Shown here: positions 6,866 to 24,044 of the stretch, one piece after another | Layout of the letters: each line of letters opens with the position of its first letter | Numbering within the stretch: position 1 is the stretch's first letter | Source of the DNA: Frigoribacterium sp. PhB116 | Lineage (GTDB): Bacteria > Actinomycetota > Actinomycetes > Actinomycetales > Microbacteriaceae | DNA: 64,000 nucleotides | Assembly: GCF_004364285.1 (NCBI RefSeq) | Contig: NZ_SOBE01000005.1 | Location: 124,001 to 188,000 of the forward strand | Reading direction: 5' to 3' | The notes under the pieces: generated by a model | Database searches by the model: none | Told to the model about the DNA's origin: nothing | Seen by the model: the letters and a program-made list of their open reading frames with translations, nothing else | Translations under genes and position numbers: made by a program

Positions 6866-6956
6866 GGTACCGTGTCCGAGCGGCCGAAGGATCATGTCTC
6901 GAAAACATGTGTGGGGGTTGACTCCACCGTGGGTTCAAATCCCACCGGTACCGCCA
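6866..6956 (+). tRNA. tRNA-Ser (anticodon CGA)
   Basis: The acceptor stem GGTACCG pairs with CGGTACC at 6946-6952; discriminator G and an encoded CCA follow. The anticodon arm is CATGT-CTCGAAA-ACATG, giving anticodon CGA, which reads UCG serine codons. A long variable arm (GTGGGGGTTGACTCCAC region) is the class II feature expected for tRNA-Ser. The T-arm contains GGTTCAAATCC. It lies at the left edge of the inserted region and is a likely integration target, but I see no second copy of its 3' end in the window. Confidence 0.96.
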
Positions 6957-7004
6957 CGGGGTTGTTTGCGCATCAATCGGAATCCGTTTGCGGAACGCAG
7001 CCCA

Positions 7005-7039
7005 AGAAGAAAGCCCCCGAGTAGTTCGGGGGCTTTCTT
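7005..7039 (+). terminator. rho-independent terminator of tRNA-Ser
   Basis: AAGAAAGCCCCCGA, a short loop GTAGT, then TCGGGGGCTTTCTT form a perfect 14-bp stem that ends in a pyrimidine/T-rich tract. It lies about 50 bp behind the tRNA and would separate it from the inserted genes. Confidence 0.9.
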
Positions 7040-7227: not shown

Positions 7228-9132
7228 CTACGTTCGCGGAGGCGGATCGACAGCGGGTCCACTCGTCGGGAACGGGGACAGTTCGGGCCGAACGTAGTCG
7301 GCGCGGTAGTTGCTCATGCCTTCGGCATCACGACGGCGGGTGCGCTGTGCAGGCACCGGCGTCAGGCCCTTCGCGACGCGGCGGTCGCGGTCCTTCGGCG
7401 CTCGGTGCTTGGCGGCGAGGAAGGTGACGATCTTGCGGATGTTCGCGGCCGTCGTGAGCATGGCGAGAAGGAACTGCTGAGCGGCGAGACCGCGCAGGCG
7501 CCGTGCGCTGGAGTCGGCGATGCGCTCGGGACCGGTCTTGATGAAGGCGTTGAAGCTCTCGATGCTGTTGCGGTCGCGGCGGTAGGTCTTGGACCACTCC
7601 TTGCTGCCATAAGGCAGCATCTGGTTCATCTTCTCGCCGTCCTCCGGGCGCACCGTGATCGAGGTCTGGCAGCAGACCTTGTCTGTCTGCTTGGGGACGT
7701 TGGCGCGCAGCACCTGCCGGCGTTCCTTGTCAGGCGATGCACGCTTGTCGAGCTTGCGGAGCGGGCACTCGACCGTCGCACTCGGGCCGAGGGCTGGGCA
7801 GCGCATCTTCACGTTGCCGTTGGCGTCGGGACCCTCCTTCTTGTGAAGTCGGTATGCGTCACGCTCGTCGATCTGCTGGGACCACTCGACGTTGTCGATC
7901 TCCTTGTTGTTGCGCCGCACCGTTGCATCGAGGAGCCGCTTCGGTGTACCGGGGCAGAACTGACCGCCTTCGACGAGCTTGGCTCCGCCGACCTGGCCCC
8001 GCACACCGGTCTGGTTCGCGCGGTTGTAGTCGAAGACGAGGCCGACGCCGAGCTCTCTCATCGGACGGTGGAAGTCCTCCATCGTGAGACCCGCGGAGTA
8101 CCCAAGGTCGGACGACAGGCGCGCGATGTCGTAGCCGCGTTCCTGGATGTTCTTCACGAGCTCGACGGTGTGGAAGCCGATGCCCTTGTTGGGCGTCGTC
8201 AGGCTCGCCCCGCGGATCAGCTGCGGTGCTTCGGTGGGGTCACCTGTCGGGTCCTCGTTGACGTCGATGATGAGGTTAGCCGTGTAGGCGAGCAGCCACC
8301 GGCTCCGTGCCTGCTTGACGCTCGCCTTGCCGTTCTCCTTGGTGTGCTTGCTGAAGACGCGTTCCTTCTCTCCCTTGTCGATCGGGTAGAGGTCAGCTTC
8401 GAGTTCCATCGCGTACTTCGGCTGTTCCTTGTCCGTGCCCGCGATGAACATGGGCTGCTCGACGCCGTTCTCCCGCGGCCAACGGTTCTTCTGGCTCGGT
8501 GCACGCAGCACTGTCTGGTCGACGGAGAGCGCGAGACGCTGACGTCGCACGGCTCGAGGCAGGTTCTGGGCCGTGGCTTCCAGCAGCGTGTTCGTGAAGG
8601 TCATGCTGCGCTCGTGTGCCCGGCGTTCGATGTTCTTGTCCCGGAGCGCGTCAAGGCTGCTCCGCTCGTCGCGGGTGAGCAGGCGGCGGGGCGCCGGCCA
8701 GGCATCCCAGAGGTCGATGATGCGGTGCATCGCCCGCCATGCCAGGAAGTACCAGTCGTTGGGCTTGTCGTTGTCGTACAGGTGAGCGATGCCGAGCTCG
8801 CGACGGGCTTCATCGTCGAGACGGTGTTCGAAGACGCGGCCCATCTCGCGCACGAAGATCATGGACTGCTCCGATAGGAGCATCATCACCACGGTCAGGA
8901 TGGCCAGGTCGTCGATCTTCGGTTTGACACCGCCCGGGGCTTTCTTCTCGCGGTCCTCCGCGCGCCAGGTCGCGAGGAGCTCGATGACGCCCGATGAACG
9001 GAGGAAGGTCATCCACTCACGGGCGTCGGCGCCGCGGAACCTGGTGGTCTTGGTCGACCCGCTGACGATCCGGTCGGCTGTGTAGATGCCGTTGAAGAAC
9101 TCCTCGTCGTGGAACGAGGGCTTGCCGGTCAC
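7228..9132 (-). CDS. DDE transposase (IS1182/IS4-like)
   Basis: The 634-residue protein carries a plausible DDE triad: LSVDQTVLRAP (first Asp), LSSDLGYSAG (second Asp, in the usual D-x-GY context) and NSIESFNAFIKTG (Glu, with downstream Lys). Four Cys-containing spots (FCPG, RCPAL, ECPLR, VCCQT) lie between the second and third acidic residues, as in IS1182-type transposases. The GTG start overlaps the stop of the upstream recombinase-like gene by four bases (GTGA), so the two are translationally coupled. No clear terminal inverted repeats were found by eye at 7.04-7.23 kb. The protein is long for a simple IS and its pairing with a recombinase-like gene is unusual. Confidence 0.75.
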   Translation of the reverse strand: MTGKPSFHDEEFFNGIYTADRIVSGSTKTTRFRGADAREWMTFLRSSGVIELLATWRAEDREKKAPGGVKPKIDDLAILTVVMMLLSEQSMIFVREMGRVFEHRLDDEARRELGIAHLYDNDKPNDWYFLAWRAMHRIIDLWDAWPAPRRLLTRDERSSLDALRDKNIERRAHERSMTFTNTLLEATAQNLPRAVRRQRLALSVDQTVLRAPSQKNRWPRENGVEQPMFIAGTDKEQPKYAMELEADLYPIDKGEKERVFSKHTKENGKASVKQARSRWLLAYTANLIIDVNEDPTGDPTEAPQLIRGASLTTPNKGIGFHTVELVKNIQERGYDIARLSSDLGYSAGLTMEDFHRPMRELGVGLVFDYNRANQTGVRGQVGGAKLVEGGQFCPGTPKRLLDATVRRNNKEIDNVEWSQQIDERDAYRLHKKEGPDANGNVKMRCPALGPSATVECPLRKLDKRASPDKERRQVLRANVPKQTDKVCCQTSITVRPEDGEKMNQMLPYGSKEWSKTYRRDRNSIESFNAFIKTGPERIADSSARRLRGLAAQQFLLAMLTTAANIRKIVTFLAAKHRAPKDRDRRVAKGLTPVPAQRTRRRDAEGMSNYRADYVRPELSPFPTSGPAVDPPPRT

Positions 9133-9998
9133 TGAGTCGCTCCCGTTGAGCGGAGAAGCGCGTGAAGCTCAACCTCGGGCATGACCTTGGCCAAGGGCGC
9201 GTAGCGAAGGAGGGACGAGACGTTCTTGAAGCCAGCCGCGTAGACGATGCTCGCCAGGGGCAAAACGTTGATCTGGTCCACGATCCAGGTGATGCGGAGG
9301 CGGCGAATAGCAGGACCGTCGTATCGGGCGCCGTAGTGCATGAGCGCGATCTCCCGGGAGGACTCCTTGCGGTGGGGGATGACCGCGTAGTCATCGTCGC
9401 CGAGTCCCTCGAAGGCGATGTCTGCGTACGAATCCCACCCGACACGGATGGGGATGCTTCGCGGCGCCTTTCCGGTCACACGGACGACCCAGCCAGCCGG
9501 AGTGCGCGTCAAGTCGCGGCCACGGACCGCGGCGATCTCGGTTGCGCCGAGGCCTGCACCACCGGCAAGCGCGAGAAGCCCGTAAGAATCCCGGCGGGCT
9601 CGGTCGGTGGACCTCGACGCGGCCCAGCTCTCGAAAGCGGGAAGCTCGGCGTGCGAGAAGGGTCGTATCTCCCGGCTCTGCTTGTTGAGGCGGTGAGGAG
9701 ACGGTTCGTAACCGAGCGCTTCAGCGAGGTTCAGGAGTCTGGTCTCGGCAAGCTGCTGCGTCTTGGCACTGGGGTAGGTGCGGGCGAAGCGGTAGATCAT
9801 GGACGGGTAGAAGAGGTCATCGCGGCGCAGCTCCGCACCGGCGTCGTGGAACGCCCACACGACGTACCGACTCGCGAAGGTCAGGAGGATCCTCGTGTAG
9901 AGCATGTCGTGGGGTTTGGCGTCGAGGATGCACGCGAGCGTGAAGTCCCGCACAGGCAACCACTTGGTCGGGGCGATACGGCGCGGGTGGTAGCGCAA
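9129..9998 (-). CDS. degenerate tyrosine-recombinase-like protein A
   Basis: The C-terminal half matches a tyrosine-recombinase fold: LLALAGGAGLGATEIAAVRG corresponds to the box I helix, VTGKAPRSIPI to the beta-hairpin Lys, IRRLRITWI to the HxxR region, and LLRYAPL to the final Tyr. The box I Arg and the His of HxxR are not at their usual places, so catalysis is doubtful. A start at TTG 9998 is preferred because AGGAGG lies five bases upstream, and an 18-bp palindrome then sits about 29 bp in front, as in the paralogue. An in-frame GTG at 10115 would give 39 more residues but put the palindrome inside the gene. It is coupled to the transposase. Confidence 0.65.
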   Translation of the reverse strand: MRYHPRRIAPTKWLPVRDFTLACILDAKPHDMLYTRILLTFASRYVVWAFHDAGAELRRDDLFYPSMIYRFARTYPSAKTQQLAETRLLNLAEALGYEPSPHRLNKQSREIRPFSHAELPAFESWAASRSTDRARRDSYGLLALAGGAGLGATEIAAVRGRDLTRTPAGWVVRVTGKAPRSIPIRVGWDSYADIAFEGLGDDDYAVIPHRKESSREIALMHYGARYDGPAIRRLRITWIVDQINVLPLASIVYAAGFKNVSSLLRYAPLAKVMPEVELHALLRSTGATQ

Positions 9999-10026
9999 GA
10001 TCGCCTCCTGAAGCTCCAGCGTGGCG

Positions 10027-10044
10027 TGGTCATTAGATTGACCA
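10027..10044. promoter_or_regulatory. palindrome A (shared operator candidate)
   Basis: TGGTCATTAGATTGACCA lies upstream of the recombinase-like gene A. It matches the palindrome in front of gene B at 16 of 18 positions, and a third similar site lies at 12508. The repetition in front of three leftward genes suggests a common repressor or recombinase-like DNA-binding protein. Confidence 0.7.
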
Positions 10045-10157
10045 AAGTGTGCTACGGCACGCTCGAGTTGGGAAGAGGGGGAGGTCGGAGGTTGTGTCTC
10101 GTCAGGGGTGGTCACGAGAGATGGACATGCGACAAGACAAGGCCATCACGCGGTCTG

Positions 10158-10174
10158 GTGCGCTTTCAGCGCAC
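10158..10174. promoter_or_regulatory. perfect palindrome upstream of HTH gene A
   Basis: GTGCGCT-TTC-AGCGCAC has perfect 7-bp arms and lies 16 bp before the GTG start of the small HTH gene at 10190. It could be an autoregulatory operator of that HTH protein. It is unrelated in sequence to the TGGTCATT palindromes. Confidence 0.55.
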
Positions 10175-10189
10175 ATCTAGACTGCGGAG

Positions 10190-10498
10190 GTGCCTGATCC
10201 ACGTTTCGAGCCGCGCTCCTACCTACGTGAGCCAGGCCGCTTCGGTCGCGACCCCGAAGCTCAGTGGGTCTCGGCGGTGTCGTTCTCGTCAGGCCAGCTC
10301 GACCAGTGGGGTGCTGCACGCATTCAGCATCGGCTGGCGTGCAGCATCCGAGTCGAGATAGCGAGACGGTTCCGCTCGGTCGGGACGTACGCGGCTGCCT
10401 CTGGGCAGAGTCCTGAGCGGCTGGGGCGTCTGCTCAGGGGTGAGGTCGTGATGCGTCTGGAAGACGTGGCAAATGCCCGTCGCCATTTGGGCGTCTGA
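10190..10498 (+). CDS. small helix-turn-helix (XRE-like) protein A
   Basis: The 102-residue product has a C-terminal HTH: IRVEIARRFRSVGTYAAASG, then SPERLGRLLRGEVVMRLEDV and NARRHLGV, which follows the XRE pattern (recognition helix in SPERLGRLLRG). The N-terminal 40 residues are not recognised. It is divergent from the recombinase-like/transposase pair and is paralogous in position and fold to the 11658 gene. A DNA-binding repressor for this module is inferred. The GTG start has GGAG directly abutting it, so translation may be leaderless or the start may be slightly different. Confidence 0.65.
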   Translation: MPDPRFEPRSYLREPGRFGRDPEAQWVSAVSFSSGQLDQWGAARIQHRLACSIRVEIARRFRSVGTYAAASGQSPERLGRLLRGEVVMRLEDVANARRHLGV

Positions 10499-10585
10499 GG
10501 GAACCTGGCCGACGCGGGAAGTGATCGTCCTGTCCCTATACGGACGTCATGGCCGCAGCCTCGGCTCGCGCCGGGGTGGTAGCTA

Positions 10586-11554
10586 TCACCGAAGTGAGTC
10601 CCGCCGGGGGTCGTCGTCCGCTCTGGCGACGTAGGGCAAGAGCCGGTCGAGCGCTTCGGCTGACTGCAAGCCGGCGACCTCCAGCAATAGGTCGAGGGGC
10701 GTCCCCCGCCGGAGGTGTTCCACGATCCAGGTCGCTCGCATGCGTCGGGACTGCAGCTCGACCGTGGGGCGCGGATTCCGACTGACGAAGTCAGTGACGA
10801 GATTGATGTTCCCGCCTCGCTGACCGCTCCGGAATGCCCACCGGGAGGCTGCCTTGGACGCCGTTCGGCACTGCAGGAGGGGGGCCCACTGGGCAAGAAC
10901 CGGGACGTCTCTCGCATCGTCACCCGACACGCGCACCATGACGCCCCGACTATCTGAGGTGATGTCCACGAGTTCTAGATCGATGATCTCCCGCCCCGTC
11001 AGTCCTGCCCCGAGTCCGAGCGCGAGGAGTGCGCCGGCGCTGGTCGTCCGTTCCTCGTCGTGCTGGCTACCGGCCCACGACAACAACGAAGCCACCTCGC
11101 TCGGGGTGTACGGACGTGACGCCTCAGCCTTGCCCAGGGCCCGGAATGTACCCGCAGCTTCGTCGCCCAGGAGCGCCTCCGACGTGCGTCTCAACCGAGC
11201 GCGCAGGGTGTTCTTGCCGGCCCTGCTGTACTGCCCGAGGTGATGTTGCACGAAGCGGTTGATGAACCGCGGGTCGAAGACGTTGTCATCTTCGAGGGGA
11301 ACGCTCGCTGTCGCCCAGGCGAATAAAGCGAGACGGGAAACGGCCGGGTAGAGCTCCTTCTCGGAGTACGGCGTTCTGTGGGCTGTGTCTCGGACGACGC
11401 GCTGCACGTAGGGGCGGATGGCGGCCCACTGATCAGCAGGCATCTTCGGCGTGTACTGGTAATGAGCCGCAGCCGGCACCTCAGGCTCCCTCTCGGCCAT
11501 GCGCCTCACCGCGTCGAGCTGCCGTTCGCGGCGTTCGTCAGCTTCATCGCTCAC
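10586..11554 (-). CDS. degenerate tyrosine-recombinase-like protein B
   Basis: The 322-residue protein aligns with protein A along its length. Shared blocks are YTPKMP near the N-terminus, FDPRFINRFV, ALGLGAGLTGREIIDLELVDI (box I region), VRVSGDDARDVPV (beta-hairpin, Lys replaced), RRMRATWIVEHL (HxxR region without His) and LLPYVARA (possible Tyr). Several catalytic positions are lost, so it probably acts as a DNA-binding or structural paralogue and not as an active recombinase. It is preceded by the best of the 18-bp palindromes (11580-11597) and is divergent from a small HTH gene, duplicating the arrangement of module A but without a transposase. Confidence 0.6.
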   Translation of the reverse strand: MSDEADERRERQLDAVRRMAEREPEVPAAAHYQYTPKMPADQWAAIRPYVQRVVRDTAHRTPYSEKELYPAVSRLALFAWATASVPLEDDNVFDPRFINRFVQHHLGQYSRAGKNTLRARLRRTSEALLGDEAAGTFRALGKAEASRPYTPSEVASLLSWAGSQHDEERTTSAGALLALGLGAGLTGREIIDLELVDITSDSRGVMVRVSGDDARDVPVLAQWAPLLQCRTASKAASRWAFRSGQRGGNINLVTDFVSRNPRPTVELQSRRMRATWIVEHLRRGTPLDLLLEVAGLQSAEALDRLLPYVARADDDPRRDSLR

Positions 11555-11579
11555 CAGCGCTCATCTCCAAGCTCGAAGG

Positions 11580-11597
11580 TGGTCATTACAATGACCA
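11580..11597. promoter_or_regulatory. palindrome B (shared operator candidate)
   Basis: TGGTCATTACAATGACCA is a perfect palindrome with 8-bp arms around AC. It lies 26 bp upstream of the recombinase-like gene B and about 60 bp upstream of the divergent HTH gene, so it could control both. Confidence 0.75.
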
Positions 11598-11657
11598 ATT
11601 TGTGATACGTTCGACGGGGCGGCCGTGCGTGCGAGCTGGCGCGCCTAGCCTTGCGGC

Positions 11658-11933
11658 ATGGGTAGAACTGCGCGCGCGAAACCAGCCGCGTTGGCCCCGT
11701 CCCCGTGGCCAGACGTTCGCTCGAACGACCCGATCGGGGAAGTGGCTCGCAGATTCGCGCAGAACCTTCGTCAGGCCGTCGGCAGTCGCAGCATCCGGTC
11801 GGTAGCCGAAGCTTCAGGTGTCACCCATACGACCCTGCTGAGCGTCCTTGCGGGCCAGGTGTGGCCGGACCTCGAAACGATCGCGAAGCTCGAGCGGGGG
11901 CTCGGCGTATCCCTCTGGCCGCGCCACAGCTGA
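11658..11933 (+). CDS. small helix-turn-helix (XRE) protein B
   Basis: The 91-residue protein has an XRE-type HTH: VARRFAQNLRQAVGSRSIRS, VAEASGVTHTTLLSVLAGQV and DLETIAKLERGLGVSLWP, with THTTLLSVLAG as recognition helix. The order helix-turn-helix-DLETIAKLE is the classic Cro/CI-like layout. It is divergent from the recombinase-like gene B with palindrome B between them. A repressor of the adjacent module is inferred; binding to the palindrome is unproven. Confidence 0.75.
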   Translation: MGRTARAKPAALAPSPWPDVRSNDPIGEVARRFAQNLRQAVGSRSIRSVAEASGVTHTTLLSVLAGQVWPDLETIAKLERGLGVSLWPRHS

Positions 11934-11956
11934 TCGTTCCAACGTGGCGGTCTCGG

Positions 11957-12508
11957 TCATGTCGATTCATCAGGCCTTTGCCCGCCCCCGGGGGCTGTCT
12001 GCGGCGAGGCTCTGTCGGGAACGTCCACCATGGTCACCTCGTCGGCCCTGGGGATTGGTGCGAACCGTTGCTGGTCGGCAGTGGGAAGTTCGTCGAGCCA
12101 GACTGCTCCTCGCTCTACCAGCCGGGCTCGAAGTGACGTTCCGGTGATGTTCTCTGCGGCGTCAGTGACCGGAGTTGCCTCGAGTTGGAACTCGCCGAGC
12201 CTGAGGCACAGCTCGAGATAGGTCAGATAGGTCTGTCGCACATGGGCCAAGAGCTCGTCGGGGGCATCTTCGGTACTCGTCTCGCGGAGCACGTCCGACG
12301 TCGGTGCCCAGCTGATCGACGCCTCGTGCTCATCTGTGGCTGCTGTGAGGCCCGAGAGTGGGCCGGCAGGATGAGCTCTCCATGTGACGCTGCTGCTTGG
12401 CCGGGCTAGGAGCGAGTCGCTCAGGTCCAGGACTAGCCCTTGAATGGTGATGATGCCGAAGGCCTTGCGCTGCCCCGAGGTCGGCTTCGCTTGTTTGCTT
12501 GCATTCAT
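11957..12508 (-). CDS. hypothetical protein with shared-palindrome promoter
   Basis: I do not recognise this 183-residue protein. It begins MNASKQAKPTSGQRKAF, has a beta-rich N-terminal part (FGIITIQGLVLDLSD), a helical middle (LLAHVRQTYLTYLELCLRLGE) and a Pro/Asp-rich tail. No transmembrane segment is seen. The start overlaps palindrome C, so a promoter inside or just before the palindrome would give a leaderless or near-leaderless message. Sharing a palindrome with the two recombinase-like genes places it in the same regulon, its best functional clue. Confidence 0.5.
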   Translation of the reverse strand: MNASKQAKPTSGQRKAFGIITIQGLVLDLSDSLLARPSSSVTWRAHPAGPLSGLTAATDEHEASISWAPTSDVLRETSTEDAPDELLAHVRQTYLTYLELCLRLGEFQLEATPVTDAAENITGTSLRARLVERGAVWLDELPTADQQRFAPIPRADEVTMVDVPDRASPQTAPGGGQRPDEST

Positions 12509-12525
12509 GGTCATTACTATTACCA
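12508..12525. promoter_or_regulatory. palindrome C (shared operator candidate)
   Basis: TGGTCATTACTATTACCA matches palindrome B at 16 of 18 positions, with the first ten bases identical. It is an imperfect dyad located between the divergent starts at 12508 (leftward) and 12532 (rightward). Confidence 0.65.
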
Positions 12526-12531
12526 CCATCC

Positions 12532-13002
12532 ATGCGAAGGGTCCAGGATCACGAAAAGTTAGAAGGTGGCGGGGTGGCCGAGGGCGAGCAGGCTGGAGGG
12601 CAACACGCGATTGTCGGATTAGGCGCGAGCCCGCCGCGCGTGGTCGTGTGGGGGGCGGATGTCTCGCGCGAGGCTCCAGGCTGGCGACTTGTTGGAGTCG
12701 ATCTGGGAATGAGGGACGGGAGGCCCTTCGGGTCTCTCCACTTCGAGGCGGTTGACGGATCGCGCCGCGCTCGGGTCGCTGTCCGGTGGGACCACGTGTA
12801 CGACCAGTTGCAGTGCTTCGTCACGGATCGGAGCTTTGCGGCGGAGGGTGAGCGCCTCGAGCGAGATGCTCGGCACCGTGTCGGCACGCTGATGGCCGCG
12901 TACGCGCAGATCGGGCTTGCAATCGTCGCTGGAACTGTCGCAGAAGGCTCACTGAGGGCCGCTTCGAACCTCGTGCCGATCGGTCCGAGGCATCCCGATT
13001 GA
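12532..13002 (+). CDS. hypothetical protein
   Basis: The 156-residue frame has no recognised motif. Its middle reads as a beta-rich domain (PGWRLVGVDLGMRDGRPFGS, ARVAVRWDHVYDQLQCFVTD) followed by an amphipathic helix (ERLERDARHRVGTLMAAYAQ). It is divergent from the 12508 gene across palindrome C. ATG 12532 is preferred to the longer frame at 12499, which would cross the palindrome. Reality as a gene is likely but not certain. Confidence 0.45.
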   Translation: MRRVQDHEKLEGGGVAEGEQAGGQHAIVGLGASPPRVVVWGADVSREAPGWRLVGVDLGMRDGRPFGSLHFEAVDGSRRARVAVRWDHVYDQLQCFVTDRSFAAEGERLERDARHRVGTLMAAYAQIGLAIVAGTVAEGSLRAASNLVPIGPRHPD

Positions 13003-13947: not shown

Positions 13948-14850
13948 CTACTCGTTCTGCTTGAGCGTCAAAGGCACGGGGGTCCAGGTGCGGCCGTTGT
14001 CGTGACTGACGACAATGGCTCGATCATCGACGGCGAATTGAACGGTCTTGTCGCCTATGTCGATGATGTCGAAGGCTTGCGGTTGGCCTTCGAGCTGTCC
14101 GACCTGTGACCAGGTTGCGCTCCCTGGATCGAGAGACCATACGGTGCCGTCAATGGTTGCGCCAGCGATCGAATATGCAGATGAGGCGACGTGCACAAGT
14201 GGCGGCGCCTCGGGGCTAGGGGTCAGGGTGGCGCCGCGGTCGGTGCTGCGTTCCAGACCATCGGGACCTGCGGCCCAAAGGATCTCGGGGTTGGCCGAGT
14301 CGACGGCCAGTGACAGGGCCGTTGTTGTTGCTTCCGTTGTCCAGGTCGCACCGTCATCGTCGCTCCGAAGGATGGCCTGGGTGGTCGAGTTCAGCCCAAG
14401 GACGCTATCGGCGGCCGTCGTCAGGTCGTGAAAGTCGGCTTTGCCCTCCAGGCTGATGGTCTGCCACGTTGTCCCCGAGTCCTCACTGCGAAGCAGCCCC
14501 CGGTTGGACGGCGCTGTCGTCGGAGCGGTGACTGCGGGGTGGCCTGAGGCGATGAGTACGTCTTGCGGCGTGGTCGTGAGCCCCATGACGTCGAACCGGT
14601 CGTCACCGACCGGGATCAACGGTGCCTCTCGGGGGCGATCAGGGTCGACCGCGGTCAGGGCGAACTTCCACAGGCCGGTGTGTGTGCCCACGAGGACAAC
14701 GGGGGAGTTGTCCACGTGAGCAAACGCGTGGACGTGTTCCAGGGATGCGTCAGCCGTCGGAGGGGCGGTGGTGGCGTTCGTGCACGCGGCCATGCCGAGG
14801 ATCACTGCAGTCGTAGCGGCGAGTCCGGCGAGGGCTTTCGTGGGGCGCAT
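13948..14850 (-). CDS. F510_1955-type beta-propeller lipoprotein
   Basis: The 300-residue product has a lipoprotein signal (LAATTAVILGMAAC, Cys at about residue 22). It continues with BNR/sialidase-like repeats: LLRSEDSGTTWQTI, ILRSDDDGATWTTE, LERSTDRGATLTP and VSHDNGRTWTPV, i.e. several S-x-D-x-G-x-T-W Asp boxes. These build a beta-propeller at the cell surface. Proteins of this kind are annotated F510_1955 family glycosylhydrolase and recur beside copper genes in actinobacteria, but no enzymatic activity is established. It lies directly downstream of the M23 peptidase genes, in the same direction. Confidence 0.75.
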   Translation of the reverse strand: MRPTKALAGLAATTAVILGMAACTNATTAPPTADASLEHVHAFAHVDNSPVVLVGTHTGLWKFALTAVDPDRPREAPLIPVGDDRFDVMGLTTTPQDVLIASGHPAVTAPTTAPSNRGLLRSEDSGTTWQTISLEGKADFHDLTTAADSVLGLNSTTQAILRSDDDGATWTTEATTTALSLAVDSANPEILWAAGPDGLERSTDRGATLTPSPEAPPLVHVASSAYSIAGATIDGTVWSLDPGSATWSQVGQLEGQPQAFDIIDIGDKTVQFAVDDRAIVVSHDNGRTWTPVPLTLKQNE

Positions 14851-14889
14851 GTGTGACGTGGTGATGGTGGTTTCCTGTCGGGCGGGCGG

Positions 14890-16173
14890 TCAGCCGAGTC
14901 GAATGCCGCGGGCGGACATGAAGGGCGCGGGGTCCGTGGAGGTACCTCCTGGTCGCACTTCGTAGTGCAGATGGCAGCCGGTGGACCCGCCTGTCGAACC
15001 GGCACGAGCGATCAGTTGCCCGGCTTCGACCCGCTGGCCGCGGCTGACGAGCAGCCCACCGTTTTCGATGTGGGCGTAGCCGGTCTGAATGCCGTTAGCG
15101 TGTTCGAGGAGGATCCAGTTGCCGTAGCTGCCGTAGACCCCTGAGTAGGCCACGGTGCCGGCCGAAGCGGCGTAGATCGGTACCCCGCATCCCCCAGCGA
15201 TGTCGATCCCGGAGTGCAACTTCCAGACCCGTTGAATGGGGTGAATTCGGTACCCGTAGGCGCTGACCATTCGACCGGTGGTGGGGTTGGCCCATCCGCT
15301 CCCGGCTACTTGACCGGCAGACGTTGCAGCCGCGGCCGCAGCGGCAGCCCGGGCGGCTGCTTCCGCCTGGATGCGTGCCCGTTCTGCGGCGCGGGCAGCT
15401 TCGCCGGCGGCGAAGTCCTGCTCGGTCGCGGCACGCTGATCCGTGAGCACGGCAAGCTGCGCTTGCAGCTCAGCTTGCTTGTCGACTTGCACTGCCAGTG
15501 CCTCATCGGCTGCCGCGGAGGCAGCCTCGGCGTCCCGGCGGGCGTCATCGGCTTCCTGGCGGAGAGCGTCGCGGGCGTCCCGGGCGAGGGCCGCCTGATC
15601 ACCGAGGCCCTGAGCGATGTTCTGATCCTGGCTTGCGTCGACGTAGATGCCTTGGCTTGTTTCAGCGAGCTTGTCGGCAAACCCCAGCTGAGAGAGAAAA
15701 TCGTCCGGGTCCTGGGCGCCGGTGAGCAGGGTGCTGGTCAAGTCCTGGCCGCCGCTGCGTGCTTGCGACGCGATGATCTGAGCTGCCCGGTCTCGAGACT
15801 GGGTGGCGGTGGCCTCGGCTGTGCGGGCCTGCTCCTGGAGTGTGTCTGCTTGGTACGCCGCGTCGAGGAACTGAGCGTCTGCTTCCTCGTACTCGGCGCC
15901 ACGGGTCAGAGCGAGCTCAGCGCTGGCAGTGGCCGCGGAGTCGAGTTCTGCGATCTGCGTCGTGATCTGCGCCACGAGGGCCTGGCCTTCCGTTTCGGAG
16001 GCACGAGCTGCTTCGACCTCGGCCCACGTCGGGTACTCAACTGCGGACGCCTGCCCCACCGGGGTGAGGACGGCAACAACCATCGCCACCACCGTGATGC
16101 TCCCCAGAACGAGCCTCACCCGGAAGGGACGGATGATGTGGCCACGACCGGGTGGCTGTTGTGCGGGCGTCAT
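14890..16173 (-). CDS. M23-family peptidase with coiled coil (secreted)
   Basis: Secreted murein endopeptidase-like protein of 427 residues. It has a signal peptide (VVAMVVAVLTPVGQASA), a long Ala/Glu/Gln-rich coiled coil (residues about 50-290), and a C-terminal M23 (LytM) domain with HSGID and GCHLHYEV giving the H-x3-D and HxH zinc ligands. ATG 16173 starts one base after the stop of the upstream M23 gene, so they are coupled; the longer frame would overlap that gene. Its closest relative in the window is the peptidase at 35686, with the same signal-coiled coil-M23 design and YPTWxxV after the signal. The role is probably wall cleavage or activation of other hydrolases. Confidence 0.9.
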   Translation of the reverse strand: MTPAQQPPGRGHIIRPFRVRLVLGSITVVAMVVAVLTPVGQASAVEYPTWAEVEAARASETEGQALVAQITTQIAELDSAATASAELALTRGAEYEEADAQFLDAAYQADTLQEQARTAEATATQSRDRAAQIIASQARSGGQDLTSTLLTGAQDPDDFLSQLGFADKLAETSQGIYVDASQDQNIAQGLGDQAALARDARDALRQEADDARRDAEAASAAADEALAVQVDKQAELQAQLAVLTDQRAATEQDFAAGEAARAAERARIQAEAAARAAAAAAAATSAGQVAGSGWANPTTGRMVSAYGYRIHPIQRVWKLHSGIDIAGGCGVPIYAASAGTVAYSGVYGSYGNWILLEHANGIQTGYAHIENGGLLVSRGQRVEAGQLIARAGSTGGSTGCHLHYEVRPGGTSTDPAPFMSARGIRLG

Positions 16174-16174
16174 G

Positions 16175-17197
16175 TCAGAGCACCCGGCCGGCGTTGGTTT
16201 CGAGCCACAGCTGCGGGTCGATCTGAAGTGTGCCGCCAAGCAAGATGCTCAGGTGCAGGTGCGCACCGGTGCTGACCCCGCTGTTGCCTACCCGGCCCAC
16301 CAGGTCCCCGACATTGACACGGTCTCCGACCCGCAGGGGGCTGGAACCGAGGACCATGTGGGCGTAGAGGCTGCTGACGGTCTGGCCATCGATCTGGTGG
16401 TCGATGATGGCGTACTGCCCGTACGCCCCGCCCATCCCCGACACACGAACGGTGCCGGCAGCGATCGCCCCGATGGGGGTGTTCTTGCCCGGGACCATGT
16501 CGATTCCCTCGTGCATGGCCGAACACGCACCGCACGGCCGCGCCCGGGGCCCGAAGTCCGAGCTGAGGGGGGTTACCCCAGGGAAGGGCCACCGAATGTC
16601 CCCGGTCCCGGTATTGACCTGGGCTGCTGCTCCGGCACCTCCCGAGGTAGCACTTTGTGTGGTGGCGAGTGCTTGCTCGGTCACGGCGTAGCCGTCTCGA
16701 CCGTCAACGGACAATGCCACCACGGAGGCGGCAAGGGATTGTCCACTGATCGGGGCAACAACACTCGTCGGGGTGGCCCCGCCCGCCAGATCAGAGGCAG
16801 TAGCCGGGGTCGTGTTCGCGGTGAAGAACATCGCCACCGCCAGCGCCCCGATAACAGGACCCAGGGTGCGGAGCTTGCGGGGACGAGCCGGTACCGACCA
16901 GGCGCTCTCGGGGAGCTGCTCCACAGCCCACGGCCGGGCTCGAGGTGCTGCTCCGGGAAGTGTTGCTCGAAGCTTGGTTCGGGCGGTGGATGGGAGCGGT
17001 TCTGCTGCTTGGTAGGTGCGTCGGCGGGGGGCCGACGGTGAGGAGGAGGGGCCGGCGGTGCGTTCGCGGGCGAGCGCTTCCCGGCGAGTGAGGGCGGCAG
17101 GAGGCACGGGGGCAGAAAGATTTTGGGGCACCAGGAAGCTTTCGATGGTGTGAGAAGTACGACGGGTGCGCGGGCACAGGGCACCGCCCAGGGGCAA
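16175..17197 (-). CDS. M23-family peptidase, membrane-anchored
   Basis: The 340-residue protein has a long basic, Pro/Ala-rich cytoplasmic N-terminus, one hydrophobic segment (LGPVIGALAVAMFFTANTTPA) and a C-terminal M23 domain with MHEGIDM and GAHLHLSI as zinc-binding motifs. It is encoded upstream of and coupled to the 16173 peptidase. The exact start is uncertain: the first ATG is used here, but a GTG about 22 codons later is also possible. Two M23 enzymes in tandem in a metal island suggest wall remodelling tied to envelope copper handling or to passage of the element, but that is inference. Confidence 0.85.
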   Translation of the reverse strand: MPLGGALCPRTRRTSHTIESFLVPQNLSAPVPPAALTRREALARERTAGPSSSPSAPRRRTYQAAEPLPSTARTKLRATLPGAAPRARPWAVEQLPESAWSVPARPRKLRTLGPVIGALAVAMFFTANTTPATASDLAGGATPTSVVAPISGQSLAASVVALSVDGRDGYAVTEQALATTQSATSGGAGAAAQVNTGTGDIRWPFPGVTPLSSDFGPRARPCGACSAMHEGIDMVPGKNTPIGAIAAGTVRVSGMGGAYGQYAIIDHQIDGQTVSSLYAHMVLGSSPLRVGDRVNVGDLVGRVGNSGVSTGAHLHLSILLGGTLQIDPQLWLETNAGRVL

Positions 17198-17230
17198 GGC
17201 ACCGGCTGGGTGCCTCGCCCCGTGGAAGGG

Positions 17231-17812
17231 TCAGAGGGAGCTGAGAAGGCTGTCCATCTGGTCGATCTGTGCCGTCTGAGATTCGACGATGTTCTTCGCC
17301 ATCTCGACTGCGTCGGGGTTTTCCCCGCCGTCGACTTCCTGCTGCGCCATGTCCACGGCGCCCTTGTGGTGCTCGGTCATCTGCTCCAAGAACAGGCGTG
17401 ACGCCTCCGTGCCCGAGGCATCCTCGAGGGAGGTCATGTCGGATTCGCTCATCATGCCGTCCATGGAGTGATCCATCGACGCAGACGTGTCCTGACCCCA
17501 GTCACCCAGCCACGTGGTGAGCTGATCGATCTCAGGCCCCTGCTCGTCCTTGATGGTTTCTGCCAGCGCGAGGACGTCGGAGTCGACGGTGTCGCCCTTG
17601 CTGATGAGGGTGTCGCTCATCTCGACGGCCTGCTCGTGGTGGGGCAGCATCATCTGGGCGAACATGACGTCCTGGTCGTTGAACACCGCCGCCTCAGAGG
17701 CAGCGGACGATCCCGAGGACGTGTCGGAGGTGGAAGTGTCGGCGCAGCCAGCGAGGGCCAGCGCGGCGATGACGGCGGTGGCGCCAACGAAGAAAGTTTT
17801 GGTGCGGTTCAT
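17231..17812 (-). CDS. DUF305 lipoprotein (copy 1)
   Basis: A 193-residue lipoprotein with lipobox LALAGC (Cys at about residue 23), a Ser/Thr-rich linker, then two DUF305 halves marked by MLPHHEQAVEM and EHHKGAVDMAQ. It also has a Met/His/Asp-rich central stretch (SMDHSMDGMMSESDM) that could bind copper. DUF305 proteins are ferritin-like helical bundles commonly next to copper genes. ATG 17812 has AAGGGA in front. It is nearly the same protein as the one at 25939; a 67-base run (17322-17388) is identical in inverted orientation to 26360-26426. It lies downstream of a DUF6153 gene, as its twin does. Confidence 0.85.
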   Translation of the reverse strand: MNRTKTFFVGATAVIAALALAGCADTSTSDTSSGSSAASEAAVFNDQDVMFAQMMLPHHEQAVEMSDTLISKGDTVDSDVLALAETIKDEQGPEIDQLTTWLGDWGQDTSASMDHSMDGMMSESDMTSLEDASGTEASRLFLEQMTEHHKGAVDMAQQEVDGGENPDAVEMAKNIVESQTAQIDQMDSLLSSL

Positions 17813-17899
17813 GGTGTGTGTCCCTTGGGGTGAGAAAGTGTGCGGCACGCTGAACGGCCGCGGGTCTCGTATCGGGGAGCTGGTCCCCAAGGGGCAGGT

Positions 17900-18361
17900 T
17901 TAGACGCGGAGAATGCTGAGCTGCGCCAGATTCGGAGCAGGGCGCAGGACGGTGATTGTCGGCAGTGCCGGCATCTCGCCCAGGGTCTTAGACAGGATGA
18001 ACAAGGCGCGGGCTCCCCGGCGTCGCAGGAGCGCCCAAGTGGACACGATCAACACCATCAGGCAGGCCATGCCCATGATCGCGCAGAGCATCGCGCAGAG
18101 CCCGCCGCAATCATCAGCGCCCGCCACGGTGACGTCGCCTGTGCCCGCAGGCGCAGCCGAGAACGCCGTGGTGGTCGCGGTGGTGTCGTGGGCTGTTGCG
18201 GCGTCGTGTTCGTGACTGGCGGTTGTGGTGGCCGTGTGGGTTCCGGTGTGACCGGCGAGCGTGTGCATCAACAGGGCACTACCGACCAGAAGGAGAATCA
18301 GCACCACCGCAGTCGCCAGACGCCCCAACCCCGTAGGGATGCGCGTCGGGTGGCCGGTCAT
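17900..18361 (-). CDS. DUF6153-family membrane protein (copy 1)
   Basis: The 153-residue protein has two transmembrane helices (LATAVVLILLLVGSALLMHTL and CAMLCAIMGMACLMVLIV) separated by a His/Thr-rich extracytoplasmic loop, and a second helix full of Cys and Met. It ends in NLAQLSILRV. These features match the DUF6153 family, found near copper genes. The Cys/Met-rich helix and His-rich loop suggest metal contact, but no function is known. Paralogues at 25438 and 37021 share the layout and the C-terminal tail. Confidence 0.75.
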   Translation of the reverse strand: MTGHPTRIPTGLGRLATAVVLILLLVGSALLMHTLAGHTGTHTATTTASHEHDAATAHDTTATTTAFSAAPAGTGDVTVAGADDCGGLCAMLCAIMGMACLMVLIVSTWALLRRRGARALFILSKTLGEMPALPTITVLRPAPNLAQLSILRV

Positions 18362-18454
18362 GACTCTCCTTTGGTGTAGTCGGTCAGAGTGTACAAGTCG
18401 AAGACGAGTGCACCCAGTGGGTTCCGGGCGTTGCGAGCTGAGGTGAGACGCCGG

Positions 18455-20554
18455 TCAGCGGTGGCGGTGCAGGACCGTCTCGACGCTCGCTTTGGGGCTG
18501 AGATCCAAGCGTCGAAGCAGTTGAGCATTGAGGGCGACAACGATCGTGGACACCGACATCAGGAGCGCGCCGATCGACATGGGGAGGATGAACCCGACAG
18601 GGGCGAGCACCCCGGCAGCGAGAGGCACGGAGAGCAAGTTGTAGCCAGCAGCCCACCAGAGGTTCTGGGTCATCTTCCGATAGCTGCTGCGGGACAGTTC
18701 GATGACGGACAGCACCGACCGTGGGTCATCCGAGGCCAGGATCACCCCTGCGGAGGCAATGGCGACGTCTGTTCCCGCACCGATCGCAATCCCGACGTCG
18801 GCCTGCGCGAGGGCCGGGGCATCGTTCACCCCGTCACCCACCATCGCCACTTTGTGACCCTCCGTCTGGAGCTGTTTGACCTTGGAGGATTTGTCCTCGG
18901 GGCGGACGCCGGCGAAGTACCGGCTGATGCCCAGCTCCCGGGCAACGGTCGAGGCGACAGCGTCGGCGTCGCCGGTGATCATCACCGGCTCCACACCGAG
19001 CGCTTTTAGCGCGTCGATCGCGTCGCGGGACTCCGGGCGCACCTCATCAGCCAGCGCAAGCGCGCCCGCCACATGCCCGTCGATCACGATGTGCAGAATG
19101 ATCGAACCGTCCTCCCGCCACGTGTTCGCGATCTCAAGTTCGGTCCCGTGTTCCTGGGTCAGCAGGGCAGGGCCACCCACCTGCACGTGCCGGCCGGTCA
19201 CCGTGGCGCTGACACCGACCGCGGGGGATGAGGTGAAGTCAGTTGCCGGCGCCAGGGCCAGGTGTCGTTCGCGGGCGGCAGTCACGATCGCTTTCGCGAG
19301 GGGATGCTCGGAATCGTTCTCCGCGGACGCCGCGAGGGCGAGGAGTTCGTCCGCGGACATCGTGCCAACAGGTTCGATGGCGGTCACGGCCGGGGTGCCT
19401 CGGGTCAGGGTGCCGGTCTTGTCGAACAGGACAACGCTGACGGTCCGCATGCTCTCCAACGCCAGGCGGTCCTTGACGAGTACCCCGCCCCGGGCGGCGC
19501 GCTCGGTCGCGATCGACACGACCAGGGGAATCGCCAATCCCAACGCGTGAGGGCACGCGATCACCAGCACGGTGATCGTCCGAATGACGGCCTCGTCGGG
19601 TTGTCCCACCAAGCTCCACACGATCGCGGTGATGATTCCCGCACCCAGGGCGAACCAGAACAACCAGCCCGCCGCGGTGTCGGCGATCCTCTGCGCGCGG
19701 GAGGAAGAGTTCTGTGCGTCTGTGACGAGGCGTTGAATGCCGGCCAGGGCGGTGTCGTGCCCGACTGCGGCGACGGTGACTCGGATACCGGAATCGGTGG
19801 CCACGGTTCCCGCGATGACCTGGTCGCCAGCCGCCCGGCGAACGGGGCGAGATTCCCCGGTGATCATCGACTCATCCATGCTCGCCGATCCGTCCGTGAT
19901 GACCCCGTCAGCGGGCACTCGGCCCCCAGGACGGACGACGATCACATCCCCTACGACAAGAGATTCCGGCGGCACGGTTTCGGTGGTGTCCCCAGTGACA
20001 CGTTCGGCTTCGTCGGGGAGGAGGGCGGCGAGAGAGTCAAGGGCTGACGTGGTCTGGGCAAGGGAGCGCATCTCGACCCAGTGACCCAGGAGCATGATCA
20101 CGATCAGGAGCGCCAGCTCCCACCAGAAATCGAGCGCCGCATCCAGAAGCGACAGGCTTGCCCCAAGGGATGCGATGAACGCCACCGTGATCGCCAACCC
20201 GATGAGGAGCATCATCCCCGGTTTCCGTGCCCGCAGCTCCGACACTGCCCCGACGAGGAACGGCTTCCCGCCCCACACGTACATCACGGCTCCCAGGAGC
20301 GGCGAGACCCAGGGAACCCAACCTGCGTCGGGGAGGCCATAGCCCAAGAGCATCGAGAACATGCTCGAGAACCCCACGACTGGGACTGCGATGACGAGCA
20401 TGATCCAGAACAGTCGGCGGAACTGCGCCACATGGTCGCCGTGCCCACCGTGACCTGAGCCGTGGTCATGACTGGAGGTGTGCCCCGATTCCTCAGAGGC
20501 TGCGGCGTCAGCCTCGAGAGTGCCGTGATCGTGCTGGTGTCCGGACTGCGCCAT
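18455..20554 (-). CDS. copB: copper-exporting P1B-type ATPase, CopB-like
   Basis: This 699-residue heavy-metal ATPase exports copper (likely Cu(II) or Ag/Cu in the P1B-3 class) across the membrane. The N-terminus is His-rich (HQHDHG, HDHGSGHGGHGDH) and has no CxxC metal domain. The sixth-helix ion site is CPH (IACPHALGLAIP) and not CPC, which marks the CopB class. Phosphorylation site DKTGTLTRG, TGES in the actuator domain and GDGVNDA are intact. ATG 20554 has AGGAGG ahead; the longer frame is rejected. Two CsoR-type boxes lie in the divergent promoter shared with csoR. Confidence 0.93.
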   Translation of the reverse strand: MAQSGHQHDHGTLEADAAASEESGHTSSHDHGSGHGGHGDHVAQFRRLFWIMLVIAVPVVGFSSMFSMLLGYGLPDAGWVPWVSPLLGAVMYVWGGKPFLVGAVSELRARKPGMMLLIGLAITVAFIASLGASLSLLDAALDFWWELALLIVIMLLGHWVEMRSLAQTTSALDSLAALLPDEAERVTGDTTETVPPESLVVGDVIVVRPGGRVPADGVITDGSASMDESMITGESRPVRRAAGDQVIAGTVATDSGIRVTVAAVGHDTALAGIQRLVTDAQNSSSRAQRIADTAAGWLFWFALGAGIITAIVWSLVGQPDEAVIRTITVLVIACPHALGLAIPLVVSIATERAARGGVLVKDRLALESMRTVSVVLFDKTGTLTRGTPAVTAIEPVGTMSADELLALAASAENDSEHPLAKAIVTAARERHLALAPATDFTSSPAVGVSATVTGRHVQVGGPALLTQEHGTELEIANTWREDGSIILHIVIDGHVAGALALADEVRPESRDAIDALKALGVEPVMITGDADAVASTVARELGISRYFAGVRPEDKSSKVKQLQTEGHKVAMVGDGVNDAPALAQADVGIAIGAGTDVAIASAGVILASDDPRSVLSVIELSRSSYRKMTQNLWWAAGYNLLSVPLAAGVLAPVGFILPMSIGALLMSVSTIVVALNAQLLRRLDLSPKASVETVLHRHR

Positions 20555-20637
20555 GAGCGTGCCTCCTAGATGCTCACAGTTGAGCACTCGTTGTCTGCCG
20601 CCAAGCGAAGTCGCGTGGCGGCTACCAGGCCTAACGC

Positions 20638-20656
20638 TATACCCCCCTGGGGTATA
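20638..20656. promoter_or_regulatory. CsoR-type operator, copB-proximal
   Basis: TATACCCCCCTGGGGTATA is a near-perfect inverted repeat with the G/C tract flanked by TA that CsoR recognises. It is about 84 bp from the copB start. Confidence 0.85.
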
Positions 20657-20694
20657 TTCCCATTTCACTGCCTGCATTCTCAGAAGCAAGCAAG

Positions 20695-20711
20695 ATACCC
20701 CCTGGGGGTAT
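20695..20711. promoter_or_regulatory. CsoR-type operator, csoR-proximal
   Basis: ATACCCCCTGGGGGTAT is a perfect palindrome 34 bp before the csoR ATG. With the first box it gives each divergent transcription unit its own copper-responsive site. Confidence 0.88.
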
Positions 20712-20744
20712 GCTTTGGGCAGCAGACGTTTTCGGAGGGATTCC

Positions 20745-21035
20745 ATGACAACCCATGTCGGCTACATCGATGACAAAGCGGACCTCGTCAAGAGGCTTCG
20801 ACGGGCCGAGGGGCAGGTGCGCGGGATCGCTCGCATGGTCGAGGAGGACACGTACTGCATTGACGTCCTCACTCAGGTGTCGGCAGCTACCAAAGCCCTT
20901 GAGCGCGTCGCCCTGACCCTCCTTGAGGATCACCTCGCGCACTGCGTCGCCCAAGCGGCGGCGGAGGGCGGAGACGTCGCGGCAGCAAAAATTCGTGAAG
21001 CCAGCGACGCCATTGCCCGGCTCGTTCGTTCTTGA
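20745..21035 (+). CDS. csoR: copper-sensing repressor CsoR
   Basis: The 96-residue protein is a DUF156/CsoR all-helical repressor that leaves DNA when it binds Cu(I). The conserved C-H-C ligand set is present as Cys38 (DTYC), His63 (EDHLAHC) and Cys67, with the spacing known for CsoR. RRAEGQVRGIARM is the conserved N-terminal helix that contacts DNA. ATG 20745 is preceded by GGAGGG. It heads the rightward csoR-copZ-copA unit and faces copB across two operators, so it probably regulates both and itself. Confidence 0.95.
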   Translation: MTTHVGYIDDKADLVKRLRRAEGQVRGIARMVEEDTYCIDVLTQVSAATKALERVALTLLEDHLAHCVAQAAAEGGDVAAAKIREASDAIARLVRS

Positions 21036-21059
21036 CCCCTCATCAGAAAGCGACACACC

Positions 21060-21383
21060 ATGACGACTGACCGCCCCGAGCTGCCCCTCACCTCAGCCGG
21101 CTCCTGCTCGTGCTGTTCACTCCCCACGAGCGACAGTGAAGTCGCTGCCAAGCCCGCTGACAGTGATGCGTCACGAGTCATCCTTGTTGGCGGCATGACG
21201 TGCGGACACTGTGTCTCCAGCGTGACTGAGGAGGTCCAAGACGTTGCAGGGGTCACAAAGGTCTCGGTAGAGCTTGTGGCGGGAGGAGCGTCGAAGGTGT
21301 CAGTCAGCACTCAAGGGCACGTTTCTGACGCTGCCCTTCAGTCAGCCATCGAGGAAGCCGGATACGAGGTTGTGTCCCGATGA
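21060..21383 (+). CDS. copZ: CopZ-like copper chaperone with Cys-rich N-terminus
   Basis: The 107-residue protein ends in a heavy-metal-associated domain with GGMTCGHC as the Cu(I)-binding loop and a typical beta-alpha-beta pattern. The N-terminal 35 residues are unusual: CSCCSLP gives three extra cysteines close together, perhaps an additional metal site. The stop overlaps the start of copA (21380-21383), so chaperone and ATPase are made together and probably act together. Confidence 0.88.
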
Positions 21384-23602: not shown

Positions 23603-23652
23603 ACCAAACACGAGTCCCCGAATGGGCTAAGGGGTCCGGACAGCTATTCCAT

Positions 23653-23666
23653 TAGACGGTCGTCTA
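23653..23666. promoter_or_regulatory. operator candidate of the CmtR-like sensor
   Basis: TAGACG-GT-CGTCTA is a perfect 6-bp-armed dyad 46 bp upstream of the ArsR-family gene at 23712, where an autoregulatory site would be expected. Confidence 0.6.
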
Positions 23667-23711
23667 TCGAGACAGTAAAAGCACATCGACGGCAAGGGAT
23701 ATCATCGGCTT

Positions 23712-24044
23712 GTGCCGATCATAGAAGAACTAGCTGCAGCGGTCTCGCTGTTCCATTCGCTGGCAGACCCGAGCCGTCTGCTCATCCTGCGCCGACTCAG
23801 CCAGAGCGAAGCGCGTGTCCGGGATCTCACTGACGAACTCGGTTTAGCCCAGTCCACTGTTTCTGAGCATGTTGCCTGCCTTCGAGACTGTGGCCTTGTC
23901 ACCGCTCGCGCCGAGGGGCGGCAGAACTTCTACTCAGTGGCCACACCGGAAGTCCTCGACGTCCTCGAATCCGCCGAGCAGCTCCTTGCCTCTACCGGGC
24001 ACAAGGTCGACTTGTGCACGACTTACGGAAGTCAGACCCGATGA
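23712..24044 (+). CDS. ArsR/SmtB-family metal sensor, CmtR-like
   Basis: The 110-residue winged-helix repressor has the recognition region LGLAQSTVSEHVACLRDCGL. The Cys pair in the recognition helix (ACLRDC) and a C-terminal Cys (KVDLCTTYG) reproduce the Cd/Pb-binding set known for CmtR and its relatives. It starts at GTG and its TGA overlaps the ATG of cadD by four bases, so it is the local sensor of the cadmium exporter. Confidence 0.85.
   Translation: MPIIEELAAAVSLFHSLADPSRLLILRRLSQSEARVRDLTDELGLAQSTVSEHVACLRDCGLVTARAEGRQNFYSVATPEVLDVLESAEQLLASTGHKVDLCTTYGSQTR

Follow-up and report, generated by a model that had tools for sequence, protein, structure and literature searches.

A DDE transposon that appears to home to tRNA genes, with decayed tyrosine recombinases as its probable target selector

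Why should a gene for a DDE transposase be joined to genes for degenerate tyrosine recombinases, and what do these genes belong to? The question is raised by a 64,000-nucleotide stretch of Frigoribacterium sp. PhB116 (contig NZ_SOBE01000005.1, positions 124,001 to 188,000; hereafter the window), in which a first-pass annotation had singled out a transposase gene coupled to one of two recombinase-like genes, A and B, each divergent from a small gene. We found the gene coordinates, the overlap and the divergent layout to be as described. To judge from the sequence, the genes at 7228-12532 are one edge of a 36.6-kb island, 6960-43595, that lies directly behind a transfer RNA (tRNA) gene, tRNA-Ser. 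We consider it probable that the island is a tRNA-homing DDE transposon that uses decayed tyrosine recombinases as its target selector. Of the two parts of this reading, we are highly confident that this is a targeted DDE transposon beside a tRNA gene, while the selector role is a prediction towards which we lean. The evidence below is in line with the earlier suggestion of a crippled recombinase targeting or regulating the transposase, although that suggestion was made without sight of the tRNA gene, the ends, the target duplication or the extent of the island.

The island stands out by composition. A block of low G+C content begins behind tRNA-Ser(CGA) and ends near 44 kb, with 60-68% G+C per kb compared with 69-78% outside, and the genes at 7228-12532 form its tRNA-side edge. 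Its terminal inverted repeat is GGTTGTTTGCRCA. The junctions, with a slash at the boundary, read CGCCACGG/GGTTGTTTGCGCAT on the left and TTGTGCAAACAACC/CGCCACGA on the right, which sets the limits of the element at 6960 and 43595. The target duplication is 8 bp long and has the form CGCCAnnn, that is, five bases from the tRNA 3' end followed by three host bases; the two copies in the window agree at seven of the eight positions. The transposase gene is directed towards the tRNA gene, with 272 bp between its stop codon and the tRNA. Just inside the left end, the 44 bases around the hairpin at 7010-7036 have a folding energy of -28.9, and this hairpin is probably a replacement terminator for the tRNA gene. 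The 10-bp direct repeats at the same end are probable transposase-binding sites. Related loci show repeats of this kind on the tRNA side at a spacing of 22-23 bp: 18 of 42 have them alike at nine or more of ten positions, against 0.07% of shuffles, and 28 of 42 at eight or more, against 0.7%. When every remaining spacing from 14 to 31 bp was taken together, a single locus reached nine or more.

Comparison within the genus suggests that the island is mobile. Six of 15 same-genus genomes carry transposases 96.8-99.8% identical at the same tRNA gene, and it is from these near-identical copies at one site in several genomes that we infer mobility. Both ends were located in five same-genus genomes: the window's own, G695, G685, G692 and G682. 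The duplication is perfect (8/8) in G695 (CGCCAGAG) and in G685 (CGCCAAAG), and matches at 7/8 in G692 and at 6/8 in G682, where the two ends lie on separate stretches. Because nearly identical elements carry different variable bases in different hosts, the duplication is most simply explained as copied from the host target. A scan for inverted repeat plus duplication, using each locus's own left end, reached 19/22 in three of 17 cases (the window, G537 and G810), compared with one of 270 cross pairs at 19/22 or better in a null of mismatched pairs. The right flanks were compared by eye with the tRNA-Ser loci of same-genus genomes that lack the window's left end. In G000, G537, G810, G094 and G543a the flank resumes with the duplication and then a hairpin, and in G094 and G543a it continues with a tRNA end and a terminator-like hairpin, again by eye; the duplication in G537 looks like 9 bp. 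Right ends proposed for G910, G725 and G400 were rejected, as their scores were not above the null, and no right end of G688, G690 or G691 turned up in the stretches examined. Second left ends, or close copies of them, follow a first element in tandem in L120, G543b, G521, G887 and G685 (by eye), which suggests repeated insertion at the same tRNA gene. Separately, a stretch of G692 (L125, about 1105-11650) has both ends and contains no transposase or recombinase-like gene; it is possibly a non-autonomous form.

Which protein joins the DNA? The 3' ends of tRNA genes are classical sites of tyrosine integrases, and on one alternative reading the recombinase-like proteins themselves would insert the island, as divergent integrases with a tRNA attachment site, leaving the DDE protein as an accessory or a passenger. 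We sought an ordinary integrase as the mobility gene, and no match to PF00589 or PF00239 was found on the window's contig at E up to 1. In the transposase, D205, D342 and E525 were invariant in ten of ten relatives and then in 22 of 22 in a wider alignment. Its fold is less certain than that of B: the predicted structure has a predicted local distance difference test score (pLDDT) of 70.7, and the leading matches in the PDB are ISCth4 (probability 0.99, E 3.4e-3) and the Tn5 transposase (probability 0.97, E 1.4e-2), with none at E below 0.001. Against the IS1182 model NF033551 the window protein scores 23 bits, below the curated cut-off of 270, while 14 of 22 family members match that model at E up to 0.01 (best 5.2e-16). 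Because the triad is kept in all 22 and the contig gives no PF00589 or PF00239 match, the DDE protein is the likely catalyst of DNA joining.

The recombinase-like proteins have lost most of their catalytic residues. The recombinase fold was recovered by structure prediction for B, to which the fold support is confined: its model (pLDDT 83) has the core-binding and catalytic domains of tyrosine recombinases, and the 50 PDB matches listed are all of that class, among them Xer, Cre/Tre, Tn1549 Int, integron and lambda integrases (best E 2e-7, probability 1.00). Sequence searches were far less telling. Pfam PF00589 matched neither A nor B at E up to 1 and matched three of 31 recombinase-like members at E up to 0.01; in the sequence libraries A had no relevant match and B had weak matches to XerD (E 0.011). 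The loss of motifs noted earlier is partial. Arg I and both His residues are gone from A, which nevertheless retains a Tyr in the catalytic column and carries a hairpin Lys that could be the beta-Lys; B keeps Arg II as its one catalytic residue. Across 31 aligned rows, with columns mapped through a weak hhalign match to the genome's own XerD (probability 32%), Arg I is present in four, Arg II in 30, Tyr in ten, the HxxR His in one, the last His in none and the beta-hairpin Lys in six, and no row has the complete R-K-H-R-H-Y set. Because dN/dS (nonsynonymous over synonymous substitution rates) against four related copies is 0.07-0.10 for A and 0.10-0.28 for B, both are maintained under purifying selection. 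A role in binding DNA without cutting it fits these proteins. No zinc-finger match was found in Pfam for A, B or their relatives. Neither PADLOC nor PHROGs was informative on the pair, apart from one weak PADLOC match of B (E 0.045), and a defence or phage reading was dropped on that account.

These data make integration by the recombinase-like proteins improbable. A does keep its Tyr and possibly its Lys, inverted arms around an 8-bp shared core are formally possible as an attachment site, and one report refers, in its available text, to a cluster inserting downstream of tRNA genes (PMC8138268). Set against this are the absence of Arg I and both His from A and B and of a full set from all 31 rows, while the DDE triad is complete in 22 of 22, and an 8-bp repeat whose host-specific bases differ between genomes with transposases 96.8-99.8% identical. 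The end repeats paired at 22-23 bp also speak against it; paired, spaced end repeats are typical of transposase sites.

If the two kinds of gene work together, they should be found together. We sought relatives in 297 genomes sampled at order level, 396 at phylum level and 374 at class level, and in 66 of another class, and found them in at least 12, 23, 30 and 8 genomes, respectively; these are lower bounds, since few candidates were scored per genome (three to four in the order, phylum and class sets), and the samples overlap and thresholds differ. The first matches were Streptomyces plasmids with a small helix-turn-helix (HTH) gene divergent from a 'hypothetical' gene of about 320 codons, followed by another 'hypothetical' gene of about 520-610. 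Among 63 loci compared, nearly all brought in by transposase matches, 43 transposase open reading frames (ORFs) span 60% or more of the model, and 40 of these have an adjacent recombinase-like ORF (34 of 37 when six same-genus near-copies are set aside). The association that the first-pass annotation drew from one locus thus recurs elsewhere; this and the recombinase fold, here supported for B, were the two points on which that annotation had said its reading could fail, and both favour it. Its paired arrangement also has counterparts, with two recombinase-like genes close together in seven loci (the window, L022, L063, L064, L069, L071 and L072), but is one sub-architecture among others. Viral contigs scanned with the DDE protein and recombinase B yielded no confirmed relative, and a scan of named-genome contigs returned only six close copies, all from Frigoribacterium.

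The same comparison bears on whether the genes are chance neighbours, an old insertion-sequence-type transposase and pseudo-integrases stranded in an island hot spot. Loci at tRNA genes collect debris, and several of the relatives are fragments. However, the order, distance and end structure are alike in many genera, the genes are under purifying selection, and near-identical copies occur in seven same-genus genomes including the window's. Recurrence, selection and end data already contradict this explanation, to which we assign a very small probability.

The relatives, which come from across Actinomycetota, share the site as well as the genes. A convergent gene for a tRNA or a transfer-messenger RNA (tmRNA) lies within 300 bp of the transposase stop in 30 of the 43 loci (24 of 37 without the near-copies), whereas among other ORFs of at least 300 amino acids in the same loci the figure was eight of 868, a rough control in which ORFs ran from stop to stop and antisense frames were included. 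The window's own genome has 45 tRNA genes. The targets among relatives are genes for tRNA-Ser, Leu, Lys, Met, Val, Gly and Ala and for tmRNA, and fragments of the transposase gene, outside the count of 43, also lie beside tRNA genes. Distant pairs of transposase and recombinase-like genes are present in two same-genus genomes (L126 and L127; G684 and G694) at the same tRNA-Ser locus, pointing away from the tRNA gene, with no clear left end behind the transposase stop.

What in a tRNA gene might be recognised? A hint comes from Streptomyces plasmids, where 18 records have a similar end. H10, H18 and H19 were left out, and L255, L261 and L266, as near-copies of L254, L260 and L265, do not count among the resulting sites. 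At each of these twelve sites a similar left end is found with no tRNA gene in the adjoining stretch. In seven of the twelve, GAANCC or AAATCC stands at -20 to -22 from the element end (background 0.7%) and nowhere else in the scanned flank (binomial p 5e-13, calculated post hoc). The T-loop of the tRNA-Ala targets of L256 and L257 falls in the same register to within one base. No inverted right end was found within about 17 kb for the plasmid copies L014-L016. The end of L014 (NZ_CP108257.1, 215621-232700), near 9.3 kb, directly abuts CRISPR-like repeats on the downstream side of type I-E cas genes. NZ_CP120991.1, NZ_CP139046.1, NZ_CP109253.1 and other Streptomyces plasmids (L258-L267) have left-end matches with no annotated transposase gene beneath; these could be solo ends or short derivatives.

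We propose the following mechanism. The DDE protein would catalyse DNA joining. The decayed recombinase or recombinases, encoded directly upstream and often overlapping the transposase gene by a few bases, would bind DNA without cutting it; such a protein would read the DNA of the tRNA gene's T-arm (B-box-like) and position the transposase some 20 bp downstream, in the interval that separates the tRNA from its terminator. A new terminator would then come from the element end. A repressor of the XRE type and three palindromes would form an autoregulatory switch. More tentatively, at slightly less than even chances in our estimate, these elements may be a phylum-wide homing class in which a DDE protein and decayed recombinases, with no Tn7-type AAA+ protein, use the T-arm of any tRNA or tmRNA gene and a fixed insertion point, with a relaxed T-loop route on plasmids, and which arose independently of Tn7.

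The main rival concerns the division of labour. Recognition of the T-arm could lie with the DDE protein, and the recombinase-like proteins could be engaged in end binding, immunity, regulation or cointegrate resolution. In Tn3-family elements a tyrosine recombinase accompanies the DDE transposase and serves in resolution, and L058 has a near-full-length transposase gene at a tRNA gene with no detectable recombinase-like gene. Resolution, however, requires a recombinase that still works, and the window copies lack key residues; a recombinase-like gene beside 40 of 43 transposase ORFs points to a tight partner; and targeting has a direct precedent in TnsF of Tn6022, an inactivated tyrosine recombinase that chooses the target for a DDE transposon (PMC10293859, in the text available). 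We regard recognition by the DDE protein alone as unlikely, yet as the alternative to be taken most seriously.

Several observations weigh against our proposal. Three of the 43 transposase ORFs have no adjacent recombinase-like gene (L058, L077 and L065, the last at a contig end), and if L058 is active, the recombinase would be dispensable for siting. For 13 of 43 the program found no tRNA gene within 300 bp. These include three plasmid copies and two loci at contig ends (L199 and L210). In L060 a tRNA 3' end missed by ARAGORN is visible in the sequence; in L064 a tmRNA gene is 1,610 bp away; L197 has a left flank CGCCA without a tRNA gene and a second copy on its contig, and is probably a tandem insertion; and L202 carries a frameshift, its C-terminal part lying 244 bp from tRNA-Ala. 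For the other four (L077, L126, L127 and L211) the lack of a tRNA gene within 300 bp is unexplained. The idea of the plasmid motif came from L014-L016 and was later loosened, hence the post hoc p-value; at the nine later sites the strict form (GAATCC or AAATCC) occurs once and the loose form four times, and the ends of L254, L265 and L267 match the reference at only 23-27 of 44 bases. Some recombinase-like relatives might not be fully dead (Tyr in ten of 31 rows, Arg I in four, hairpin Lys in six), and L020 and one L063 copy keep both Arg residues and Tyr. Finally, in 14 of 17 end scans the best score did not exceed the null, and a single mismatched pair reached 20, more than any true pair, so that ends outside the scan-supported cases rest on reading by eye.

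The start of A and the smaller genes are best considered with the palindromes (Table 1). The true start of A is probably near 9998, since the palindrome at 10027-10044 lies upstream of that position. Three palindromes of nearly one sequence had been reported; TGGTCATTANNNTKACCA is present as an exact match three times in the window, where 0.01 matches would be expected with up to two mismatches, and nowhere else in the 3.37-Mb genome at up to one mismatch. We think it rather likely that this palindrome is the operator of the XRE protein. In L020 the best candidate for such a palindrome falls within a coding gene and was set aside. Both small divergent genes had been labelled XRE-type HTH genes. 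The label suits the gene at 11658, which matches HTH_3 and whose product is probably a repressor, but no library match backs it for the gene at 10190, whose product is probably a regulator. The 190-amino-acid gene behind the third palindrome has no homologue in distant relatives by BLAST.

Table 1. Features of the island and its target site in the window
Feature	Position	Strand	Remarks
tRNA-Ser (CGA), target gene, intact	6866..6956	+	ARAGORN
Left copy of 8-bp target duplication, CGCCACGG	6952..6959	+	bases 1-5 belong to the tRNA 3' end
Left terminal inverted repeat, GGTTGTTTGCGCAT	6960..6973	+	
10-bp direct repeats, TGTTTGCGCA and CGTTTGCGGA	6963..6994	+	22 bp apart, 8/10 alike
Strong hairpin just inside left end, AAAGCCCCCGAGTAGTTCGGGGGCTTT	7010..7036	+	sequence
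DDE transposase, distantly IS1182-like, 634 aa	7228..9132	-	D205, D342, E525
Decayed tyrosine recombinase A	9129..10115	-	start as called, 10115; overlaps DDE start by 4 bp
Operator-like palindrome, TGGTCATTAGATTGACCA	10027..10044		
Small divergent protein	10190..10498	+	homologues in L020, L021
Decayed tyrosine recombinase B	10586..11554	-	
Operator-like palindrome, TGGTCATTACAATGACCA	11580..11597		
XRE-type HTH protein	11658..11933	+	HTH_3, E 1.8e-7; homologue in L020, 59% identical
190-aa protein behind third palindrome	11957..12529	-	
Operator-like palindrome, TGGTCATTACTATTACCA	12508..12525		
Cargo, metal-resistance and other genes	13948..43193		20 ORFs scanned
Right terminal inverted repeat, reverse complement GGTTGTTTGCACAA	43582..43595	-	
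Right copy of target duplication, CGCCACGA	43596..43603	+	then terminator-like hairpin (by eye)

The cargo is of an ordinary metal-resistance kind. It includes two heavy-metal-type P-ATPases, a metal-sensitive repressor, a Cad transporter, a cation efflux protein and CopD/CtaG, together with DsbA- and DsbD-like (thioredoxin-like) proteins, M23 peptidases, lipoprotein-processing enzymes, DUF305 and DUF3800. A long inverted repeat within the island (17238-17815 and 25936-26510; 487 nt at 88%, plus 84 nt) overlaps two copies of a DUF305-type gene. Between the mobility genes and the cargo, at 12499-13580, are two small ORFs of 167 and 171 amino acids without relevant family matches; the first is matched in six of six same-genus copies and the second in five of six. 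Outside the island, 59001-60000 has a strong AT skew (0.50).

In the open-access literature, most subscription papers being outside the search, we found no description of a DDE protein paired with such a recombinase-like protein. Heavy-metal islands and tRNAs both figure in a paper on Frigoribacterium genomic islands, whose main text, as available, does not contain the word 'transposase' (PMC12823222). On sequence evidence, these elements are a new and widespread form of targeted DDE transposon, for which the case for tRNA homing is strong and that for the selector role moderate. If this is true, DDE transposons account for some 'tRNA islands' of Actinomycetota in which no integrase is apparent, and their mobility genes go under the label of hypothetical proteins, as in six plasmid records. 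TnsF would then not be alone as a decayed tyrosine recombinase recruited to select targets, and the system here apparently has many fewer components than Tn7 or the CRISPR-associated transposons (CASTs); it would let the fixation of a transposase to one point be studied without an AAA+ ATPase. Because the apparent determinant is the widely shared tRNA T-arm, the system could function in a wide range of bacteria and might serve for compact insertion of large cargo behind tRNA genes.

How, then, does the element compare with known systems? The first-pass annotation could name no comparable element, a claim that does not survive the published account of TnsF. Tn6022, with TnsF, and the Tsy element likewise join a protein of decayed tyrosine-recombinase fold to a DDE system; Tn6022 differs in using TniQ and Tn7-type machinery and in targeting comM, and its TnsF has an N-terminal zinc-finger region, core-binding domains in tandem and a partial catalytic domain (PMC10293859, as far as its available text goes). 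The window element has an IS1182-like DDE protein and takes tRNA or tmRNA 3' ends as its target, and no Tn7-type protein (TnsB, TnsC or TniQ) was found among 28 island ORFs scanned with Pfam. Tn7-like elements and CASTs (types I-B2, I-D and V-K) are also DDE transposons at a fixed position beside a tRNA gene. In the accessible parts of the sources, they target through TnsD/TniQ or a guide RNA and make 5-bp duplications, and CyCAST inserts 30-33 nt downstream of the tRNA (PMC10293859, PMC11406308), whereas the window element lies about 3 bp after the CCA, with a duplication of 8 bp (G695, G685) and perhaps 9 bp in others. IS1182 is the nearest named transposase family, from which the element is set apart by its large island, recombinase-like partner and fixed target. 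Islands of tyrosine integrases and integrative and conjugative elements at tRNA genes share the kind of site, a mobility gene at the tRNA edge and the recombinase fold; here the catalytic residues are decayed, the direct repeat is 8 bp, and a DDE gene occupies the position of the integrase. Dada transposons of fish and protists are DNA transposons that specifically target tRNA genes, but they are a eukaryotic superfamily that inserts inside those genes, and no recombinase-like partner is mentioned in the text available for them (PMC8869645).

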